Source: Bacillota bacterium (GTDB taxonomy: Bacteria > Bacillota > Clostridia > SK-Y3). Taken from it: a stretch of 49,429 nt of DNA. Positions within the stretch are counted from its first letter, which is position 1. Each line of letters begins with the position of its first letter. The translations under genes and the position numbers were made by a program. The stretch lies in the NCBI GenBank assembly GCA_022360955.1, contig JAKSBV010000335.1, positions 1-49,429 on the forward strand. The letters run 5' to 3'. Positions 37,461 to 49,429 of the stretch are shown here, in pieces. The notes below the pieces were generated by a model. That model was not told the origin of the DNA and did no database searches. It saw nothing but the letters and a program-made list of their open reading frames with translations.

Positions 37461-37478
37461 GGAATGGGAGCAGTGAAA

Positions 37479-38147
37479 ATGATAACCATAGGTATAACGG
37501 GAGCGGAACAGGAATCCGGTATTATAAGCATGCTTCGCAAGATTATGAATCAAGCAGATCTAAAATTCAGCATTATTGAATCGTATGATTTCCACTTATC
37601 GATGCTGCCTAGCGTCTCTTTAAAAGACTATATCGGCGAGCTGAAAAAAAACAAGACAGATATTGCCATCATCAAAATAGTAAAGGAAAAACTGATAGCC
37701 GGAATGTATCACCATATCAAATTTAATATCCTGGTCTATAATCATATAAGCGATCATAACGGCCAAGGGCCTCAGCATGAAAAAATGGCCCATGAGAAAA
37801 AAATATTTGACGCGATGGATAAAGAGGATATTGCCATTATCAACATAGACGATCAAAGGGTTTTGCAATTGCTCCGAGACAGCAAAATGTGTGTAATTAC
37901 CTATGGGCTCAGTTCTAAAGCGACCATTACCGCTTCCAGCATAGAGGCCGATTCCGATTGCAGTACCTTTATATACTGCCTGCAAAGAACCTTGTGCACC
38001 GTTGAAGGAAGAGATATCGAGCCGCAAGAGTTTCCGGTCAGAATTATTTCCTCAAAGGATAAAAACACGTATAATACGCTTGCAGCGGTGACGACGGCCC
38101 TTGTTTGCAATGCGGATGCGTCGGTGATACAAGCCCTGATATTATAA
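37479..38147 (+). CDS. Mur-ligase-like protein with degenerate P-loop
   Basis: The 222-residue product resembles only the central domain of MurE/folylpolyglutamate-type ligases: IAIINIDDQRVLQLL, CVITYGLSSKATITASSI and ISSKDKNTYNTLAAVTTALVC follow the order of NADD, ITYG and YNxLAA blocks. The ATP P-loop is degenerate (GITGAEQESGI instead of GTNGKT), and the N- and C-terminal ligase domains are absent. It may therefore bind a nucleotide or ligand without ligating. GGGAG lies eight bases before ATG 37479; the longer ATG 37464 lacks a site. The SSB-like gene follows. Confidence 0.65.
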   Translation: MITIGITGAEQESGIISMLRKIMNQADLKFSIIESYDFHLSMLPSVSLKDYIGELKKNKTDIAIIKIVKEKLIAGMYHHIKFNILVYNHISDHNGQGPQHEKMAHEKKIFDAMDKEDIAIINIDDQRVLQLLRDSKMCVITYGLSSKATITASSIEADSDCSTFIYCLQRTLCTVEGRDIEPQEFPVRIISSKDKNTYNTLAAVTTALVCNADASVIQALIL

Positions 38148-39463: not shown

Positions 39464-39937
39464 ATGACGTACACGGATATTTTTTCCACCATTACGCAAC
39501 AATTGGAACAAGCCTTTCCGGGATATTTGGTAACTGGGGAGGATCCGTCCCAGGGCAGCCAAAGACCCGCCCTTTTTGTTGAGGTTATTCCGCTCAAGAT
39601 CACCAACGGACGCTATTTTAAAACCAAAAGTCTAAAGGTGAGCATCGGTTATTATTCGCAGAATCAAACACAAGGCGAGTACTTATTGATGGCGGAAGCC
39701 CTGCAGGATCTTTTTGGACAATCTCTCCGTACAGGCGGCAGGCAATTAACGATCGACAATCTGGATTTCATCATCAAAGAGGGTGTACTACAGGTTGGTA
39801 TGCAGCTTGTATTTCAAGAAGGCACAGCATTGCTCGAACTGAAAAACAGTAAAGGACAGGCGCAATATATGCTGCCGGATCAGGAGAGAGGGTATACCCA
39901 GGAAAGTATTGCACTGCCGGAAAATTTAGAATATTAG
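39464..39937 (+). CDS. Phage tail terminator-like protein (DUF6838 type)
   Basis: A 157-residue protein placed directly before the sheath gene, the position of tail terminator or completion proteins in PBSX-like and diffocin-like clusters. Recognisable segments are DPSQGSQRPALFVEVIP, SIGYYSQNQTQGEYLLMAEALQDLF and TIDNLDFIIKEGVLQVGMQLVF. It presumably caps the tail tube; in a headless particle it would close the top. AAGGAG precedes ATG 39464. Confidence 0.75.
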   Translation: MTYTDIFSTITQQLEQAFPGYLVTGEDPSQGSQRPALFVEVIPLKITNGRYFKTKSLKVSIGYYSQNQTQGEYLLMAEALQDLFGQSLRTGGRQLTIDNLDFIIKEGVLQVGMQLVFQEGTALLELKNSKGQAQYMLPDQERGYTQESIALPENLEY

Positions 39938-40054
39938 AGGGAATAGAGATACGGAACGCTAAACCGGACAATGCATTTGGGCAGACAATGACGGTGCGGA
40001 GTCTGCGATCCGTCGTGATATTCTCAAGTCTAACACAATTAGGAGGGAACAACT

Positions 40055-41116
40055 ATGGGAATGCCGGAAATTATTATTGACTTTAAAACTTTGGCGGTGA
40101 GCGCCGTCCAGAGAAGTGAAAGAGGTGTGGTTGCACTCATTTTGAAGGACAGCACCGACACCACTTTCGATACCAAAATCTATACAAGTATCAGCGACGT
40201 GGCTGCCGGCGATTGGACAGCCGACAACAAAGACTATATTGATAAGGCCTTTATGGGGACACCAAGCAAAATCATTGTTGAAAGAATCAATGCGGATGCG
40301 CTGGACTATAATGCTGCTCTGAGCAGGCTTGCCAATAAGCAATTCAACTATCTGGCGGTGCCGGGTATTGCAGACGCCGATGTGCCTGTCATTGGAAGCT
40401 GGATCAAAGATAGAAGGGATAATGGCAAGAAAACCTTTAAAGCCGTACTGCCTAATCATGCAGCGGATCATGAAGGTGTGATCAACTTTGCAACTGCCGA
40501 CATTCAAGCAGGGAGCAAAACCTATACAACAGCAGAATACTGTGCCAGAATCGCAGGTGTCTTGGCTGGACTTCCCTTTACACGCTCCAGCACCTATTAT
40601 GCACTGACCGAGGTTGAAAGCGTTACCGAAAGTGCGGACCCGGATGCGGATATTGATGCAGGCAAGCTTATCCTGGTCAACGATGGCGCAAAAATTAAAA
40701 TAGGCAGGGGTGTCAATTCGCTGATCACTGCAACCGCTGCCAAAGGAGAAATCTTTAAGAAAATCAAGATCGTAGAAGGGGTCGACCTGGTGCGAGATGA
40801 TATTCGAAATACGTTTGAAAACAACTATGTCGGTAAAGTGATCAATCACTATGACAGCAAGGTGCTATTCACAGCATCGGTTAATGCATACCTCAAACAG
40901 CTTGCCAATAGCGACATCCTTGACAGGAATTATGATAACAGAGCCGAAGTGGATGTGGAAAGCCAAAGGCTGTACCTGCAGGGTAAAGGTGTCAATGTTG
41001 ACGAGATGGACGAGCAGGGCATCAAAGAATACAACACCGATTCCAAGGTATTCTTGAAATCGAATGTTAAATTCGTAGATGCAATTGAAGATTTACAATT
41101 CTCAGTGTATATGTAA
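40055..41116 (+). CDS. xkdK: Contractile tail sheath protein (XkdK-like)
   Basis: Forms the contractile outer sheath. The 353-residue product has the compact sheath length of PBSX XkdK and diffocin sheaths; MPEIIIDFKTLAVSAVQRSERGVVALILKD is the typical start, and ILDRNYDNRAEVDVESQRLYL with VFLKSNVKFVDAIEDLQFSVYM the typical end. TAGGAGG precedes ATG 40055. The tube gene follows 14 bases later. Confidence 0.93.
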   Translation: MGMPEIIIDFKTLAVSAVQRSERGVVALILKDSTDTTFDTKIYTSISDVAAGDWTADNKDYIDKAFMGTPSKIIVERINADALDYNAALSRLANKQFNYLAVPGIADADVPVIGSWIKDRRDNGKKTFKAVLPNHAADHEGVINFATADIQAGSKTYTTAEYCARIAGVLAGLPFTRSSTYYALTEVESVTESADPDADIDAGKLILVNDGAKIKIGRGVNSLITATAAKGEIFKKIKIVEGVDLVRDDIRNTFENNYVGKVINHYDSKVLFTASVNAYLKQLANSDILDRNYDNRAEVDVESQRLYLQGKGVNVDEMDEQGIKEYNTDSKVFLKSNVKFVDAIEDLQFSVYM

Positions 41117-41130
41117 GGGAGGAATAAAGA

Positions 41131-41571
41131 ATGGGAAAAATGCCAGGATACAGACAAATTAACGGAGTATGGGGACATATCTGGTGGGACGGCGAATTGG
41201 TTGCCGAAATAGACGAATTTGAGTCCAAAGTGGTTGCCGAGCGAGAGGATGTAGCAATGGCCGGAGGCCTTGATGTAGAAAGCAAAATCACATCCTTAAA
41301 GGGCGAAGGAACCATGAAATTGAAGAAAGTGTTCAGCAGGGGTATCAAAAAGCTGATGAAAGCGTGGCAGGAAGGAAAAGATCCCCGTTCACAGCTTGTG
41401 GGCAAATTGGCCGATCCCGACGCATACGGTTCCGAGCGCGTGGTCATCAATAATGTATGGTTCAATGAACTGACCTTAATGCAGTTTGCAAAAGGAGTCT
41501 TAACAAGGGAATACCCGTTTGGATTTACACCTTCGGATGTAGAATTCCCGGATACGATCGAAGTAAGATGA
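41131..41571 (+). CDS. xkdM: Tail tube protein (XkdM-like)
   Basis: Forms the inner tube hexamers. The 146-residue product matches XkdM in length and features (MPGYRQINGVWGHIWWDGELVAE, VDMES-like GGLDVESKITSLKGEGTMKLKKVFSRG, REYPFGFTPSDVEFPDTIEVR). GGGAGG precedes ATG 41131. The stop is followed at once by a simple-sequence tract (TGATAGTGGGCAGCGGGTGG). Confidence 0.93.
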   Translation: MGKMPGYRQINGVWGHIWWDGELVAEIDEFESKVVAEREDVAMAGGLDVESKITSLKGEGTMKLKKVFSRGIKKLMKAWQEGKDPRSQLVGKLADPDAYGSERVVINNVWFNELTLMQFAKGVLTREYPFGFTPSDVEFPDTIEVR

Positions 41572-41640
41572 TAGTGGGCAGCGGGTGGTTGGTGGTGGGT
41601 AGTGAGAGATTGATACCCGCTGCTGCCGGCTGATGCCTGC
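41572..41640. repeat. G-rich simple-sequence tract after the tube gene
   Basis: TAGTGGGCAGCGGGTGGTTG and GTGGTGGGTAGTGAGAG words begin at the stop codon, closely like those after the GH38 gene. There is no obvious complementary arm. It sits inside the tail operon and the remaining 140 bases to the chaperone gene show no ORF. Confidence 0.6.
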
Positions 41641-41783
41641 ATAAGGTGCAGATAGAGGGAGTAAGGCATGGGGGCGGTTTTTGTTGCTGCATTTGGTTTT
41701 TAGGGAAGAGGGACCGTTCCCGGGCTTTGTCTCTGAATGACGTAAAAGTCAGGATTGGTTAATCAATTAGAGGAGGTATACCG

Positions 41784-42167
41784 ATGCGGAAGGAACAGGT
41801 TAAAAAGCTTACGTTACAAGAACTGATTGCGAAAAAAGAGCAAATTCAAGATACAAAGACGAATAAGACCAAGGATTTATACATTAGCTCATTGGATGGG
41901 AGCGTTACCATTCAAAAGCCGGACAAGCAGTTGTGCCTGGATGCACTGGAAATGGATCAGCAGGGTGACACCTATCTCGTGTATCATTGTGTGGTGCAGC
42001 CCAATGTGAAAGACAAAAAATTGCTGCAGGCTTTTGGGTGCACGGAGCCTATAGAAATTGTGGAAAAACTTTTTGAAATCGGTGAAATATCCGCTATTGC
42101 AAAAGAATGTATTACACTTGCAGGGTACGGGGACAGCGTTACCGTTGTTGAAGACATAAAAAACTAA
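41784..42167 (+). CDS. xkdN: Tail assembly chaperone, short form (XkdN/gpG-like)
   Basis: A 127-residue cytoplasmic chaperone for tape-measure and tube assembly, of the XkdN type (MRKEQVKKLTLQELIAKKEQI, then the domain to VVEDIKN). AGGAGG precedes ATG 41784. The last sense codons contain A_AAA_AAC (42158-42164) immediately before the TAA stop, a classic -1 slippery heptamer, and the -1 frame stays open for 63 codons. Position between tube and tape measure is exactly that of frameshifted chaperones in contractile tails. Confidence 0.88.
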   Translation: MRKEQVKKLTLQELIAKKEQIQDTKTNKTKDLYISSLDGSVTIQKPDKQLCLDALEMDQQGDTYLVYHCVVQPNVKDKKLLQAFGCTEPIEIVEKLFEIGEISAIAKECITLAGYGDSVTVVEDIKN

Positions 42168-42355
42168 TCGGTAGTGATGGGGAAATATACATGCTCCACC
42201 ACTACCTGCAAAGAGGTATTACCCCTGAATATATACTCAATATGTCCCGTACCGAGCGCATGTTTTACTTTGCAAGTATGGAAAAATATTTTGAGGAAGA
42301 ACAAGAGAAGATCAATGCCGGCATGGGCATTTGTCCTCTTGGAGCGAGCAGGTGA
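42164..42355 (+). CDS. -1 frameshift extension of the tail assembly chaperone (gpGT-like)
   Basis: Reading in the -1 frame from the slippery A_AAA_AAC gives LIGSDGEIYMLHHYLQRGIT, then PEYILNMSRTERMFYFASME and a helical end to TGA 42355: 63 residues, for a 190-residue fusion. No independent ribosome binding site is visible in front of the internal ATG (CTCCAC context), supporting expression by frameshifting. It ends seven bases before the tape-measure start. Confidence 0.8.
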   Translation, partial: LIGSDGEIYMLHHYLQRGITPEYILNMSRTERMFYFASMEKYFEEEQEKINAGMGICPLGASR

Positions 42356-42361
42356 TAGAAT

Positions 42362-44773
42362 ATGACGACACAAGCTGTCACAACGATAACACAGATGAAT
42401 AAAAAGCTTGATGCCCTCTTGCAAAAAGCCCTAGACGGTGTGGAAGATCTGACCGGCTATTTGAAAACAGCTGTGACAGGGATATCGGATATGAGAAAAG
42501 AAGGGGATCGTGCGGCAAATAGTATAGGAAGACTAAAAAAAGCGGTACAGGTCTTTTCAAAAGAAGCGTCAAAGCCTATCAAAGGACAAGGGAAGTCTGG
42601 CACAAAAGGCAAAGACAGTCCATCCAAGCCCCAAAAGCCGGGCGGTGCAGATATGGGGAAAATCGCAAAAGAAGCGGCCAATCTCAAGGTAAACCTGGAG
42701 ACAGGGGTTTCCGTCATATCTGAGATCAAGCAAGTAGGGGAAACGGCAAGCGGTGGAGTGGAAAACTTAAAAGGCGCGTGGAGTGACTTTTTAGGGGCAG
42801 GCGCTATGCCGACAAATAAGCCGGAATCCCAGGGAGAAGACAGTGAAGGAGCAGGACAAGAGAAGTCTGGCACAAAAGGCAAAGACAGTCCATCCAAGCC
42901 CCAAAAGCCGGGCGGTGTAGATATGGGGAAAATCGCAAAAGAAGCGGCCAATCTCAAGGTAAGTCTGGAAACAGGGGTTTCCGTCATATCTGAGATCAAG
43001 CAAGTAGGGGAAACGGCAAGCGGCGGAGTGGAAAACTTAAAAGGCGCGTGGAGTGACTTTTTAGGGGCAGGAGATATGCTGACGAATAAGCCGGAGCCCC
43101 AAGGAGAAGGCAGTGAAGGAGAAGGACAAGAGAAGGGTTTCGGTGCAGCAGCGGAACAATTTAATAGCGGGCTGCAAAAGGTGAAAGAAGGACTGGAAGC
43201 TGCAAATACGGTGATGTCCGACATACAGCAGATAGGTGGCAAAGCCGCAGGCAGCGCAAAAGATGTCAAAGGGGCCTGGCAGAGTCTGTGGGATGAAGCT
43301 TCAAAGTTCAAAGTGAATAAAGAGACATCCCAAGATGGTGGGAAAAAGCAATCCGCCAAGGAAAAAGCAGTAACATTCAACGATAAATTCACCGGTAAAA
43401 CAGGAGAAAAAACCGAAAAGCAAAGCAAAGTAAATATCAAAGAAGTATTTTCCGTCCAGAAATCTCTCAAGAAAGAGGCCGGCCAAAAGTTATCCGAACC
43501 GAGCGCAGTCAAAACGTTACAAGGCAGCCATATCGCCGGCAATTCCCCCAAAACCGGAAAAGCACCGGTCAAACCGAAAGCATCTGCAAAAGGCGGGGGT
43601 AAAGCGGGCGGCAGCGTAAATAATTTGATCGGGAATACCCAAATGTTCATGGCAGGCGTGGAAGGTGCGACAGTAAGCATTACCAACATGGGTCAGAACT
43701 TTGACGGCGTTGTTGCAAAGATGGCCGGCACCCCAATAGGCCAAAAGCTGGGTCTTGCAGAAACTTGGGAAAATGTCAAGGGTGTAATGCAGGAAGAGCT
43801 TATGCCTGTGATTGATAAAGTGAACTCAGGCTGGCAGACGATGGAGACCCTTGTGCAAGGTGCCGCTACGGCACAGCAAATCTATCAGTTGGCAGTGCTG
43901 GGGGTGCAAAATGCCAGCAAAATAGCGACAGCAGCGCAATGGGCCTGGAATATAGCATTAAATGCAAATCCCATAGGTCTCATTGTACTGGGTATAGCCG
44001 CGTTAATCGGCATCGGTATTTTGTTATACAAGAACTGGGATACCATTAAGCTGAAAGCGACGGAAGTGTGGGGAGGCATCAAAAACTTTATTTCCGGTGT
44101 ATGGGAAGGGATCAAGGAAAAGACAATAATGGTATGGGAATTCATCAAACAGAACCTCGGTACCATTATACCGATTATCGCCGGCATTATTCTCGGACCG
44201 ATCGGAGCGGTTGCAGGATATGTCATTACCCATTGGGAAGAGGTAAAGGCCTTTATGATGGAAATATGGGAAGGCATTCGCACCAAAGCTTTTGAAATAT
44301 GGGAAGGGATAAGAATCACTGTTGAAAATTTTGTGACCGGTATCGTGAACAAAATACTGGAATTTAAGGATAAAATCTTCACAACATGGGAGGAAATTAA
44401 AGCCTTTATTAGCAATCCGATCAAAGGTGTCGTAGAATGGTTCAGCAAAGACAAAAGCAGCGGCAAAAAGGCTGAAGATACATTTGTCGCCGAACATAAC
44501 GCAAAAGGCACCGGTTATTGGAAAGGCGGACCCACATGGGTACATGAACAAGGCGGAGAAATCATGGACCTGCCCACGGGTACACGGATTTATCCCCATG
44601 ACCAATCGGTGCAAATGGCAAGGCGGGAAGGGATGAAGACAGGCAAGGGTATCCATATCGGTACGCTGGTGGATAAAATTGCCGATACCGTGGTCATCCG
44701 GGAAGACGCGGATATCGACCGCATTGCAGATAAGATGGCAAACAAAGTAAAATTGGCGATAGCCAACATGTAG
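42362..44773 (+). CDS. Tail tape measure protein with internal repeats
   Basis: The 803-residue product sets tail length. Residues about 20-65, 78-167, 168-257 and 258-320 contain four copies of a helical repeat (TGVSVISEIKQVGETASGGV type); the two middle copies (period 90 residues, 270 bp) are almost identical at DNA level. Residues about 375-420 are basic and Gly/Lys-rich. Two hydrophobic segments lie at about 525-560 (PIGLIVLGIAALIGIGILLY) and 600-622, followed by VWEGIK-type repeats. There is no lysozyme or peptidase domain. ATG 42362 follows AGGTGA, which is the stop region of the chaperone extension. Confidence 0.9.
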   Translation: MTTQAVTTITQMNKKLDALLQKALDGVEDLTGYLKTAVTGISDMRKEGDRAANSIGRLKKAVQVFSKEASKPIKGQGKSGTKGKDSPSKPQKPGGADMGKIAKEAANLKVNLETGVSVISEIKQVGETASGGVENLKGAWSDFLGAGAMPTNKPESQGEDSEGAGQEKSGTKGKDSPSKPQKPGGVDMGKIAKEAANLKVSLETGVSVISEIKQVGETASGGVENLKGAWSDFLGAGDMLTNKPEPQGEGSEGEGQEKGFGAAAEQFNSGLQKVKEGLEAANTVMSDIQQIGGKAAGSAKDVKGAWQSLWDEASKFKVNKETSQDGGKKQSAKEKAVTFNDKFTGKTGEKTEKQSKVNIKEVFSVQKSLKKEAGQKLSEPSAVKTLQGSHIAGNSPKTGKAPVKPKASAKGGGKAGGSVNNLIGNTQMFMAGVEGATVSITNMGQNFDGVVAKMAGTPIGQKLGLAETWENVKGVMQEELMPVIDKVNSGWQTMETLVQGAATAQQIYQLAVLGVQNASKIATAAQWAWNIALNANPIGLIVLGIAALIGIGILLYKNWDTIKLKATEVWGGIKNFISGVWEGIKEKTIMVWEFIKQNLGTIIPIIAGIILGPIGAVAGYVITHWEEVKAFMMEIWEGIRTKAFEIWEGIRITVENFVTGIVNKILEFKDKIFTTWEEIKAFISNPIKGVVEWFSKDKSSGKKAEDTFVAEHNAKGTGYWKGGPTWVHEQGGEIMDLPTGTRIYPHDQSVQMARREGMKTGKGIHIGTLVDKIADTVVIREDADIDRIADKMANKVKLAIANM

Positions 44774-44786
44774 GGAGGGAGTTTAT

Positions 44787-45209
44787 ATGGACATATATCT
44801 TTCAATCAACAATAGAGCGCAAGTGATTAAACTTCCTGTTATTCCTGCAGAATTCAGGATTCAGAGTGCCATGAATAATGAAAACTACACTACCATTAGT
44901 CAGGGAGACATCAAGCTTATCGGGCTGAAGGGTTTGAAAGGGTTGGTCATTGAATCCTTTTTCCCGACCAAAGAGTATGTTTTTTCAAGAGATGACGACT
45001 ATAGAGGGTTTCAATATGTTGAGATGATTGAAAAGTGGATGGAAGAGCGCATTCCCATCCGTTTAATCATAAGCGAGACGCCTATTAATATGCCCTGTAC
45101 CATTGAGAGCTTTGAATATGGGGTCAAGCCGGGCAGCGGTGACATCTATTATACGCTGACCCTCAGCGAATTCAAATTCATAGCATTACAGCAGAAGCAG
45201 GTGGAATAA
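44787..45209 (+). CDS. Baseplate/hub accessory protein (XkdP-like without LysM)
   Basis: A 140-residue protein located between tape measure and hub, where PBSX has XkdP. Features are VIKLPVIPAEFRIQSAMNNE, IESFFPTKEYVFSRDDDYRG and IISETPINMPCTIESFEYGV. PBSX XkdP carries a C-terminal LysM motif; here the protein ends before it. GGGAGGGAG precedes ATG 44787, and the stop touches the next ATG. Confidence 0.75.
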   Translation: MDIYLSINNRAQVIKLPVIPAEFRIQSAMNNENYTTISQGDIKLIGLKGLKGLVIESFFPTKEYVFSRDDDYRGFQYVEMIEKWMEERIPIRLIISETPINMPCTIESFEYGVKPGSGDIYYTLTLSEFKFIALQQKQVE

Positions 45210-46196
45210 ATGGCACATAGAATAAGCTTAATGAATCATGAAAAACAGGTGTTTGACATCTCGTCCATGGTAGGCAGTATTTCATGGAAAAGCAATATTG
45301 ACCAGCTCGGTTTACAGCTTGATTTTGATCTGGCGTTTAACGATACCAAATATTTTCCCGACAATCCCGTTGACTTGGGCAATGTAATCATACTGGAAAA
45401 TGAGGATGAAATTTTTCGTGGGGTGGCCATTACAGAGAACCGTAATGGCCGCGGAAGCATCGGCTATACGGCCATGGACTATGCATTTTACCTGAATAAG
45501 TCCAAAATGATATACCAGTTCAATAAAATATCGGTCTCTCAGGCCATTCACACGATTCTAAAAGACCTGAACATACCTATAGGCGCAATCACCGAAATCC
45601 CTACGGTCATTCAAAAAATATGCAAGGGCGAGGTTGCGAGTGATATCATTAAAGGCCTTTTAAAACAGGCGAAAGATGAGCTGGGGCGCACTTACAGGAT
45701 GGAAATGAGACAGGGAAAATTATTCATCGAAGAGCAGCAGCAATTGCAGGTGAAACCGACCTTCAAGCTTGCAAGCAACTTGACCCACCACGATGGTCAA
45801 AGGGCTATTTCGAATCCCTCCAGAAAACGGAGTATTGAAGCGATGAGAAATTCTATCAAAATTATTTCAGGAGATGAGAACAGTACCAGTGTCGTGGCGG
45901 ATAAAAAAGATGACGAATTAATCCGGAAATATGGCCTATTGCAAGAAGTACAAACGCCGGAAAAAAAGGATATAGCGCAGGCGAGAAATATTGCAGCAAA
46001 TCTATTGGCCGATTTGGGCAAGGTGTTTGAACAAAACAGCGTAGAGATGCCCGGGGACGACAGTGTAAGAGCCGGAAGGCTGATAGAGATAGAAGAGCCG
46101 GTTACGGGGATGAAAGGACAGTACTTGGTCAGAAGTGCAAGTCATACCGTTGCAAACGGGATTCACAGGATGAATTTGGATTTGGGGGTGGTGTAG
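45210..46196 (+). CDS. xkdQ: Tail hub protein (XkdQ/gpD-like)
   Basis: A 328-residue homologue of the hub protein that joins tube and spike (XkdQ, P2 gpD family). The features are FDISSMVGSISWKSNIDQLG, GFGD-like FRGVAITENRNGRGSIGYTAMDYAFYLNKS, and the C-terminal PGDDSVRAGRLIEIEEP and SHTVANGIHRMNLDLGVV. ATG 45210 directly follows the stop of the preceding gene; a GCAGGTGG lies upstream. Confidence 0.88.
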   Translation: MAHRISLMNHEKQVFDISSMVGSISWKSNIDQLGLQLDFDLAFNDTKYFPDNPVDLGNVIILENEDEIFRGVAITENRNGRGSIGYTAMDYAFYLNKSKMIYQFNKISVSQAIHTILKDLNIPIGAITEIPTVIQKICKGEVASDIIKGLLKQAKDELGRTYRMEMRQGKLFIEEQQQLQVKPTFKLASNLTHHDGQRAISNPSRKRSIEAMRNSIKIISGDENSTSVVADKKDDELIRKYGLLQEVQTPEKKDIAQARNIAANLLADLGKVFEQNSVEMPGDDSVRAGRLIEIEEPVTGMKGQYLVRSASHTVANGIHRMNLDLGVV

Positions 46197-46622
46197 TTGG
46201 ACGGTGTCAATGAATTGGCGAGGCTTTTAAAGGAAAGAGAAAACATAGAACACATGGGCATACAGGTGGGGGAAGTTATTGCACCGTTGCCCGACCTGCA
46301 GGTGAAGCTCAATGAAAATATACTGTTGACGAAAGACCATCTGCGTATTGCCTACCACCTTTGCACCGATTATCAGAGGCCGTTTCAGGTGGAAGGGACC
46401 ATAAAGCTTGCGGATAATGACTGCGGTCAGACCGGCAGTGTGGGGGTCGGAGACCATGGAACCCATCAACACACGCTTGAGACAGTCAATATCGAAACGG
46501 AGATGACCGCAAACGGAACCATCAAGCTGACCGATTTCCTCAAGGCAGGGGATGAAGTCATCTTAATTCCCACCCAGGATGAACAGACGTATTTTTTAAT
46601 AGATAAGGTGGTGAAGCTGTAA
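46197..46622 (+). CDS. Baseplate protein of the XkdR/DUF2577 type
   Basis: A 141-residue protein beginning with TTG 46197 right after the hub stop (TAGTTG). It shows LARLLKERENIEHMGIQVGEVIAPLPDLQVKL and a GDHGTHQHTLETVN segment, followed by FLKAGDEVILIPTQDEQTYFLIDKVV. This family sits between hub and gpW-like protein in PBSX-type baseplates. GGGGGTGG precedes the start. Confidence 0.85.
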   Translation: MDGVNELARLLKERENIEHMGIQVGEVIAPLPDLQVKLNENILLTKDHLRIAYHLCTDYQRPFQVEGTIKLADNDCGQTGSVGVGDHGTHQHTLETVNIETEMTANGTIKLTDFLKAGDEVILIPTQDEQTYFLIDKVVKL

Positions 46623-47068
46623 TGCTGCCGGAGATAGGATATGTGGAATTGAATAATAGAATAGTGCCCCAGGGCGCGGCAACGGGCAAATCCTTTTTGT
46701 TTGACTTTGGTGCAGGGGACTTTGTGCTTCAGGATGGCAAATTGGTGGAAGTAACGGGGAGTGATGCCCTTAAGATGTGGATTGAAAAGATGCTGCGTAC
46801 GGAAAAAAACCGTTTTGAGATCTACCAGGACACCGATTACGGTGTCAGCATCGAAGATGTCATCATCGGACAACGGTACGAACAAAGCTTTATTGAAAGT
46901 GAAATCAAACGGGAAATATCCGAAGCTTTGATCAAACACCCGCTGGTTCGAAGGATCTCAAACTTTTCAATCAAACGAGAAGATACCCGGGCGGTTGTGG
47001 GATTTACCGTTACCCTGTCCGGGGACCAATCCTTTCAGCAGGAGGTGATGTTAGATGGAACAGGATAG
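46622..47068 (+). CDS. xkdS: Baseplate wedge protein, XkdS/DUF2634 (gp25/gpW-like)
   Basis: A 148-residue protein of the gp25-like wedge family. The typical ALKMWIEKMLRTEKNRFEIY, DYGVSIEDVIIGQ and IKREISEALIKHPLVRRI segments are present. ATG 46622 overlaps the preceding TAA by one base, and the 3' end overlaps the next gene by 14 bases. Confidence 0.92.
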   Translation: MLPEIGYVELNNRIVPQGAATGKSFLFDFGAGDFVLQDGKLVEVTGSDALKMWIEKMLRTEKNRFEIYQDTDYGVSIEDVIIGQRYEQSFIESEIKREISEALIKHPLVRRISNFSIKREDTRAVVGFTVTLSGDQSFQQEVMLDGTG

Positions 47069-48125
47069 ACAAAGCATACAAGATCGTATGCTGGCAGGTA
47101 TCAGTGACCAATACAACAAATCCCAAGGTTCTTTTTTCTACGATGCCCTAAAGCCTGTGGCGATTGAATTGGAGCAGTCCTATGCCCGGCAGGAGGCCAT
47201 ACTGGACAAAGGCTTCGTGGCTACCGCAGCCGGTGAATACCTGGATAGAAAGGCGGCAGAACAGGGGCTCTACAGGAAAGAAGCGACCAAAGCGATTACT
47301 ACGGTTAAGATTACAGGCACAGAAGGAGCGGTTATCCGTGAAGGAGATAGGGTAGCCGGTGATACCGTCACTTTTGTTTGCATCGAGACAAAGACAATTG
47401 ATGCTTCGGGTCAGGCCCATGTAAGGGTGGAATGTGAAGAGGCCGGCAGTGTGGGTAATGTACCGGTGGGCGCCATCAAGTACTATCCGGTCAAATTGAC
47501 TGGCTTGGAGACAGTTACGAACCCGGAAAAAGCGGAGAACGGGTATGACGGAGAAGAGGACGAAGCCTTACGGCAGCGGTATCTTGATAAGGTCCAAACG
47601 CCTGCCACATCCGGCAACAAACATCACTATAGGAATTGGGCGAAGGAAGTACCGGGGGTAGGCGATGCCCGGGTTTTTCCGCTCACCAATGCCCAAGGCA
47701 ATAAGGAGAACGGAACTGTTAAGATAGTCATTATTGATGCGGATAAAAAAGCGGCGTCCGTTGAGTTGATAAGCGAGGTCACAGCCAAGATTGAAGAAGT
47801 CAGACCCATTGGGGCGTCGGTGGTTGTGCAAAGTGCCGTTAAAGTGCCGATAAACGTCCAAGTGACGGATTTAACGGTGGATACGGTCAATCACACCCTG
47901 GAGCAGGTCAAAAAAGATATGGAAAAAAGTATCGAGCAGTATTTGAAAGACATTGCTTTCCACCCGACAACCAATTACGTCAGCCGTGCCATTATCGGCA
48001 GTTATATCCTGAACGTAGCCGGTGTTATCAACTATGGAGATATACAACTCAACGGTGTGGCACAGGATATCATCATTGAAGCAGACCAGATCGCAGTGAT
48101 GGAGGAGGGGGTTCAGCTTGTCTAA
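47055..48125 (+). CDS. xkdT: Baseplate J-like protein (XkdT)
   Basis: A 356-residue wedge protein of the gpJ/XkdT family, which links hub, wedge and fibre. It has QSIQDRMLAGISDQYNKSQG at the start, the central EEDEALRQRYLDKVQTPATSGNKHHYRNWAKEVPGVGDARV block and IGASVVVQSAVKVPINVQV. AGGAGG lies before ATG 47055, inside the end of xkdS. It overlaps the next gene by eight bases. Confidence 0.93.
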   Translation: MEQDRQSIQDRMLAGISDQYNKSQGSFFYDALKPVAIELEQSYARQEAILDKGFVATAAGEYLDRKAAEQGLYRKEATKAITTVKITGTEGAVIREGDRVAGDTVTFVCIETKTIDASGQAHVRVECEEAGSVGNVPVGAIKYYPVKLTGLETVTNPEKAENGYDGEEDEALRQRYLDKVQTPATSGNKHHYRNWAKEVPGVGDARVFPLTNAQGNKENGTVKIVIIDADKKAASVELISEVTAKIEEVRPIGASVVVQSAVKVPINVQVTDLTVDTVNHTLEQVKKDMEKSIEQYLKDIAFHPTTNYVSRAIIGSYILNVAGVINYGDIQLNGVAQDIIIEADQIAVMEEGVQLV

Positions 48126-48660
48126 TCGATATATGCAGCAGTTACCCCGCTATTACCGTACAAGCCGGGTCATGACCGACATGTCCCGGTCAATGGATAC
48201 CGAGCTGCGACAGGTTCAAGACCGGGTAGATAATATCCTGAACCAGTTCTTTGTTGATACTGCCGACTTTGCGCTGGAGCGCTGGGAACAGGAACTGGGC
48301 ATCCCGGTCAACAATACCAAGCCTGCCGACTACCGCAGAAGCGTTATCAAAAGCAAGCTCAGGGGAAGCGGAACCGTGACCGTCAATTTCATCAAAAATG
48401 TTGCCGAATCCTACAACAATAGTGAGGTAGAAATCCAGGAGGACAACGCAAGCTACAGCTTTACCGTCAAGTTTGTGGGTACAAAAGGGATTCCGCCCAA
48501 CCTGGACGATTTGAAGCTATCCATTGAGGAGATCAAGCCCGCCCATCTGGCCGTGGACTTTGCATTTACCTATACCATATGGGAAGAGGTCAAACAGATG
48601 ACCTGGCATGAGGTCAAAGGCGTAACGTGGGAAGAGTTAAAAATTGTGGACAATTTTTAG
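48118..48660 (+). CDS. Baseplate/tail protein of the XkdU/DUF2313 type
   Basis: A 180-residue protein with YMQQLPRYYRTSRVMTDMSR, FFVDTADFALERWEQELGI and SVIKSKLRGSGTVTVNFIKNVA, typical of YmfQ/XkdU (gpI-like) proteins that anchor tail fibres. The C-terminus has a short repeat (WEEVKQMTWHEVKGVTWEEL). TTG 48118 follows GGAGGAGGGG. The stop is followed by a simple-sequence tract and then the fibre gene. Confidence 0.9.
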   Translation: MSNRYMQQLPRYYRTSRVMTDMSRSMDTELRQVQDRVDNILNQFFVDTADFALERWEQELGIPVNNTKPADYRRSVIKSKLRGSGTVTVNFIKNVAESYNNSEVEIQEDNASYSFTVKFVGTKGIPPNLDDLKLSIEEIKPAHLAVDFAFTYTIWEEVKQMTWHEVKGVTWEELKIVDNF

Positions 48661-48842
48661 TGTACAGCTGACAGCGTACAGGAGACAGTGTCAAGGGGAC
48701 GGTTCTCCTGACACGCAATCAACAGAATACTCACAATGGTGTCACACGACATCTAAAAGCGAAAAACTAAGCCATAGCACCTATGAGAAATGGACTATAA
48801 ACAGCTTTTAACTGTCCACTGTCAGCTGTCAACTGTCCACTA
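48661..48842. repeat. Simple-sequence inverted repeat between baseplate and fibre genes
   Basis: GTACAGCTGACAGCGTACAG words start at the stop codon, followed by TGTCAAGGGGACGGTTCTCC (the word of the 30675 palindrome), and AACTGTCCACTGTCAGCTGT with CAACTGTCCACTA close the region. There is no ORF. The element interrupts an otherwise overlapping operon. Confidence 0.65.
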
Positions 48843-48862
48843 AAAAAAGGAGGGTGATAGAA

Positions 48863-49429
48863 GTGCCGGAATTAACAACGAACTTAGGTTTGGAAAAGCC
48901 TTTAGGCAATGAGATTGCAGATATAGCGGTCATCAACAGCAATATGGATAAGGTTGATGGGGAAATCACGAAAAAGGCTAGTACAACAGAAGACGGAAGA
49001 ATGTCAAAAGAAGATAAAACAAAGCTGGATGGGGTTGCGGACAGTGCCAACAACTATCAGCACCCGGCGGCACACGCCCCATCCGTCATTACTCAGGATG
49101 CCAACAATCGATTTGTGACCGATGCCGAAAAAGCAACTTGGAATGCAAAAGAAACCCCAAGCGGGGCGCAGACGAAAATTAACACCCACGCCAATAAAAT
49201 CGACAACCCTCACAGTGTCACAAAGGCACAGGTAGCGCTGGGGAGTGTGGATAATGTAAAACAGGCCACGAAAGCGGAATTTGATGCGCATGTTGGGGAC
49301 GGTGGTAAGCACCCGACAGCATTGAGTCAGTTAAACGGGGATAGCACGCATAGGACGGTGACCGACGCGGAGAAGGCAGCGTGGAATGGAAAACTAAATG
49401 CGGGTGCCAAAGCTGCAGATAGTAATAAA
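48863..49429 (+). CDS. Tail fibre protein, N-terminal part (runs off the window)
   Basis: AAAGGAGG (48847-48854) directs GTG 48863, and the frame is open for 189 codons to the edge. The start PELTTNLGLEKPLGNEIADI is a baseplate-attachment segment found in clostridial fibres. It is followed by fibre repeats of the type TDAEKATWNAK, NPHSVTKAQVALGSVDNVKQ and HRTVTDAEKAAWNGK. The receptor-binding end lies outside the window. Confidence 0.9.
   Translation, partial: MPELTTNLGLEKPLGNEIADIAVINSNMDKVDGEITKKASTTEDGRMSKEDKTKLDGVADSANNYQHPAAHAPSVITQDANNRFVTDAEKATWNAKETPSGAQTKINTHANKIDNPHSVTKAQVALGSVDNVKQATKAEFDAHVGDGGKHPTALSQLNGDSTHRTVTDAEKAAWNGKLNAGAKAADSNK

Follow-up and report, generated by a model that had tools for sequence, protein, structure and literature searches.

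Comparative sequence evidence for a programmed −1 ribosomal frameshift in an XkdN-type tail assembly chaperone gene

In a contractile tail cluster of a Bacillota bacterium (Clostridia; SK-Y3), the gene for the tail assembly chaperone (TAC) stops directly after six adenines and a C, and a second reading frame lies open behind it. Does this gene specify one chaperone or two? The question was raised by a first-pass annotation of contig JAKSBV010000335.1 (assembly GCA_022360955.1), and we have addressed it in the whole contig of 49,429 nucleotides (nt), referred to below as the window, and in homologous loci. Our answer, to which we assign a probability of roughly 95% on the basis of sequence comparison, is that a −1 programmed ribosomal frameshift would make two chaperones from one start codon. 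A slippery signal, an open frame, conservation, coding constraint, RNA structure and gene order are all present in the sequences themselves, and we regard the comparative case for genuine −1 programmed frameshifting as strong. From these features we infer that ribosomes would slip in vivo with a frequency of a few per cent.

The slippery heptamer and its conservation

The TAC gene of the window (positions 41784–42167; all features described here lie on the forward strand) encodes a protein of 127 amino acids (aa), the putative short, gpG-like form. It starts with ATG, has a GGAGG-type ribosome binding site 5′ of the start, and is assigned to the XkdN type through matches to Pfam PF08890 (Phage_TAC_5; E=9.8e-11; 42.2 bits, above the curated cut-off of 27) and to phrog_4976, tail assembly chaperone (E=1e-42). 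Direct reading of the sequence confirmed the earlier description of its 3′ end: the last codons are GAA GAC ATA AAA AAC TAA, in which the heptamer A_AAA_AAC (42158–42164) is in phase for tandem −1 slippage and abuts the 0-frame stop TAA (42165–42167). The first codon after a −1 slip is CTA at 42164, from which the −1 frame runs through 63 codons before any stop, as had been stated, and reads LIGSDGEIYMLHHYLQRGITPEYILNMSRTERMFYFASMEKYFEEEQEKINAGMGICPLGASR before a TGA at 42353–42355. This extension (42164–42355), a predicted gpT-like C-terminal domain, ends 6 nt before the tape measure ATG at 42362 and not seven bases before it as first given. The predicted junction-spanning tryptic peptide is NLIGSDGEIYMLHHYLQR for a tandem slip with Asn kept, and LIGSDGEIYMLHHYLQR, preceded by K, for a P-site slip. 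A_AAA_AAC had also been ranked among the most efficient slippery heptamers; this holds for mammalian ribosomes, where few heptamers are more prone to shifting, but A_AAA_AAG is by far the stronger of the two in E. coli (PMC5009743).

Homologous TAC genes were collected from whole genomes, viral contigs and genome contigs (relatives in the last were found with an alignment query, while a single-protein query found none), and counts were made over 135 distinct TAC 3′ ends with enough downstream sequence. The matches span tens of genera (40 in one search, 35 in another) as well as phage contigs. Loss of the heptamer in close relatives, which had been named beforehand as an observation that would speak against frameshifting, was not seen: 133 of the 135 have an in-frame A-rich heptamer at the 0-frame stop or one codon earlier, together with an open −1 extension of 47–82 codons, and such agreement in heptamer position and open frame is not due to chance. 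A_AAA_AAC stands immediately 5′ of the stop in 107 of the 135. Within the set of 133, the heptamer is A_AAA_AAC in 124, A_AAA_AAA in six and A_AAA_AAG in three, and the stop abuts it in 113 and lies one codon further in 20. The codon preceding AAA specifies I (43), A (40), L (22), V (20), K (6) or T (2) and its third base is always A; the last codon of the heptamer is AAC in 124 and never AAT. Since the amino acid before AAA varies while its codon always ends in A, and AAT is never used, selection acts on the nucleotides and not on the protein alone. The two exceptions are L041, where A_AAA_AAG lies about 20 codons 5′ of the 0-frame stop and the −1 frame again stays open, and L081 (similar to L079), where an A8 run has a changed phase. 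A +1 shift was also considered and rejected, since the +1 frame mostly meets a stop codon after only a few codons.

A-runs are the classical substrate for transcriptional slippage, and a fusion could arise in this way and not through ribosomal frameshifting. Six homologous TAC 3′ ends (L169, L069, L174, L175, L079 and L074) have A9 and then TAG in place of A6C; for these, and for L081, transcriptional slippage or a variable A-run may operate instead of pure ribosomal slippage. In 127 of the 133 homologues, however, the window included, the run is exactly six A (nine in the other six) and is followed by C or G, and a run of six is shorter than those usually needed for efficient polymerase slippage. 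Furthermore, the conserved C, the phase of the heptamer and a hairpin a few nt downstream in the translated strand fit tandem tRNA slippage. We consider it extremely improbable that the fusion is a product of the transcription machinery.

The −1 frame as coding sequence

Judged by its pattern of substitution, the −1 extension is evolving as protein. For the part beyond the hairpin, compared over 19 independent pairs, the ratio of nonsynonymous to synonymous substitution rates (dN/dS) stands at 0.13 for the −1 frame, compared with about 1.6 for the two remaining frames. There is less synonymous change near the heptamer (dS 0.33 in the first 17 extension codons versus 0.59 beyond), which is what additional selection on RNA structure in that stretch would produce. 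In homologue alignments the extension forms a conserved C-terminal domain family.

A conserved frame might also be a small gene in its own right, with translation beginning at the in-frame ATG 42191 (54 aa), and phage records annotate the extension in relatives in this way. In support of this, a GGAG lies shortly 5′ of the equivalent ATG in close relatives, and a coding sequence (CDS) of this kind is listed in GenBank records of relatives. In the window, however, no Shine-Dalgarno-like motif precedes ATG 42191, and the G-run there is part of the hairpin stem. Moreover, when the first 25 extension codons were inspected in 132 homologues, 54 were found to have no ATG and 20 to have no ATG, GTG or TTG, and an independent gene cannot explain those 20. 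A separate gene with its own ribosome binding site, the arrangement that the first-pass annotation had set against its own proposal, is therefore not general. The extension codons between the heptamer and the ATG (LI..D) are conserved, as is the heptamer at the nucleotide level, and some of the annotated CDSs are not in the correct frame. Taking both sides together, we judge a separate gene to be very improbable and prefer the frameshift; dependence on frameshifting over an own start is evident at the level of the family, although the window extension itself contains the in-frame ATG.

It had been anticipated that annotation would miss the extension, and public phage records bear this out. In all five such records (L184–L188) A_AAA_AAC precedes the chaperone stop and the −1 frame stays open for 53–64 codons; L184 and L185 list the extension, in its correct frame, as a 'hypothetical protein' of its own, in L186 and L187 an open reading frame in another frame stands in its place, and in L188 it is unannotated. 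Public annotation of XkdN-type phages often errs at the TAC extension. With regard to existing families, the window extension matches only PHROGs of unknown function, and 36 diverse extensions match nine PHROGs, all without assigned function, and no family in Pfam or NCBIfam. PHROGs 10264, 2722, 20560, 10943, 5646, 28231 and 33439, all of unknown function, match XkdN-type chaperone frameshift extensions. These could be re-annotated as TAC C-terminal domains, and several orphan phage families would in this way be accounted for as C-terminal halves of a known protein.

RNA structure and a working model

RNA folding predicts a stem-loop at 42170–42206, separated from the heptamer by a 5-nt spacer, in which 42170–42176 pair with 42200–42206 and 42178–42182 with 42194–42198 (7 bp + 5 bp, 12 bp in all, with an A/C mismatch between). 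Relative to codon shuffles that keep the encoded peptide, the folding energy of the window hairpin has a z-score of about −3.1 to −3.3, and the 131 loci compared average z = −1.8, with 48% below −2. In a scan along the loci, the excess folding is localised right after the heptamer (mean z −1.81, with 47% of loci below −2); elsewhere the mean is −0.74 three codons on, −0.59 at one later position and between −0.03 and −0.33 at the rest, on both sides. We also aligned 22 homologues, chosen by hand for diversity, some of which lack the hairpin. Cells in which both sides of a pair had changed numbered 23, versus 13.3 ± 2.4, and both this count and the covariation score beat all 500 shuffles and all slid registers, the latter being a control that somewhat favours a structure derived, as here, from the window row. 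One fixed hairpin register was tried and held only partly, since some relatives pair in a shifted register. A conserved slippery site plus downstream structure, which the first-pass annotation had suggested looking for in aligned homologues, are thus both found, and the hairpin would be a stimulator-like structure, common though not universal in loci of gpG/gpGT type.

Under the working model that we favor, most ribosomes would end at the TAA (42165–42167) and release the 127-aa XkdN-type chaperone, and a minority would slip −1 on A_AAA_AAC, aided by the stem-loop and perhaps by the abutting stop codon, and continue to 42355, producing a 190-aa fusion that carries a second domain. If the roles follow those in lambda gpG/gpGT, the short form may coat the tape measure protein and the long form, made rarely, may recruit tail tube subunits through its extra domain, with the frameshift frequency setting the short:long ratio. 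The heptamer abuts the stop in most homologues and is followed by the hairpin, and one could imagine that ribosomes slip more readily when a stop codon occupies the A site. We think this rather unlikely; if it were true, the balance between short and long chaperone would be set, across XkdN-type tails, by how fast termination proceeds. The near-invariable stop beside the heptamer is the one feature of the system that may hold a mechanistic lesson.

Several observations weigh against programmed frameshifting as the source of the long form: (i) in many close relatives GGAG precedes an ATG 27 nt into the extension, where extra internal initiation may occur; (ii) no gpT-family sequence match is recognisable for the extension; (iii) a strong stem is present in only about half of the loci, and its register drifts between subgroups and (iv) no dnaX-like Shine-Dalgarno stimulator was found upstream of the heptamer (mean z −0.2, with the window worse than its shuffles).

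The tail cluster and comparison with known systems

The chaperone gene sits between the tube and tape measure genes, as frameshift loci of gpG/gpGT type require. Directly 5′ of it is the gene for the tail tube protein (41131–41571; PF09393, E=1.6e-39), with that for the contractile tail sheath protein further 5′ (40055–41116; PF17482/PF04984; phrog_1480, E=3.5e-141), and directly 3′ of the extension is that for the tape measure protein (42362–44773; phrog_991, tail length tape measure, E=6.7e-29). The cluster runs from tail terminator through sheath, tube, Phage_TAC_5 chaperone, extension and tape measure to an unnamed phage protein, YqbQ-like, DUF2577, sheath initiator, baseplate J and Gp48-like genes; the window, being the whole contig, ends at 49429, and the 3′ end of the cluster lies beyond it. 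Positions 42583–43122 of the tape measure gene hold an in-frame tandem duplication (270 nt, 90 codons, copies 94% identical), which may be recent and may alter tail length, as tape length sets tail length.

On the 5′ side of the tail terminator are an SSB-domain gene, a small Mur-ligase middle-domain protein, a polysaccharide deacetylase, a GH3 glycosidase and metabolic genes. The Mur-ligase-like gene (37464–38147), just 5′ of the SSB-domain gene and the tail cluster, encodes a stand-alone small protein that is almost only the middle domain (PF08245). No terminase, portal or capsid genes were found among the scanned proteins upstream of the tail cluster, whereas two relatives (L137 and L138) have such genes upstream of the tail and are full prophages. 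Because of this difference, the contractile tail cluster at 39464–49429, which adjoins host metabolic genes, looks like a headless, tailocin cluster (R-type, diffocin-like).

The likeness of the locus to the gpG/gpGT arrangement, as first proposed, is supported by gene order, heptamer, conserved −1 domain and downstream hairpin. Lambda gpG/gpGT is the prototype and has, as proposed for the window locus, a −1 frameshift in its TAC. Lambda is a siphovirus, whereas the window locus belongs to a contractile tail whose chaperone is of the XkdN family (Phage_TAC_5), and it differs further in its heptamer, in the stop abutting the heptamer and in an extension without match to a known T family. 'G-T' frameshifting is conserved widely in long-tailed phages, with higher efficiency in P2 relatives (PMC5009743). 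In the GeneTack survey of fs-genes, a predicted frameshift in an HK97-like TAC cluster gave 6–7% in reporters (PMC3711429); this is a chaperone family other than XkdN, and XkdN and PBSX are unmentioned in that paper. Our literature search found no relevant paper linking XkdN with frameshifting, the survey of Xu et al. 2004 being outside its reach, and nothing relevant on tailocins, TAC and frameshifting in combination.

Precedent in contractile tails comes from P2 and its relatives, Pakpunavirus Adele and the Vandenendeviridae, which have a −1 TAC frameshift of the sort proposed for the window locus (PMC5009743; PMC12846349). For P2-like and other myovirus TACs, what is taken for a downstream 'gene' is in fact the C-terminal portion of the long form (PMC5009743; PMC12846349), and the same misannotation has been described for the Pakpunavirus TAC frameshift (PMC12846349). 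The frameshift concept itself is unchanged, and the mechanism is well known in phages. The chaperones and slippery sites of these contractile-tailed phages differ (GTTTTT in the Vandenendeviridae), whereas the window locus combines A_AAA_AAC and a hairpin with the XkdN-type chaperone of Firmicutes tails. The gpG/gpGT logic would thereby be extended, with strong comparative support, to a large XkdN-type contractile branch in Firmicutes phages, and would reach a putative headless, tailocin-like cluster as well.
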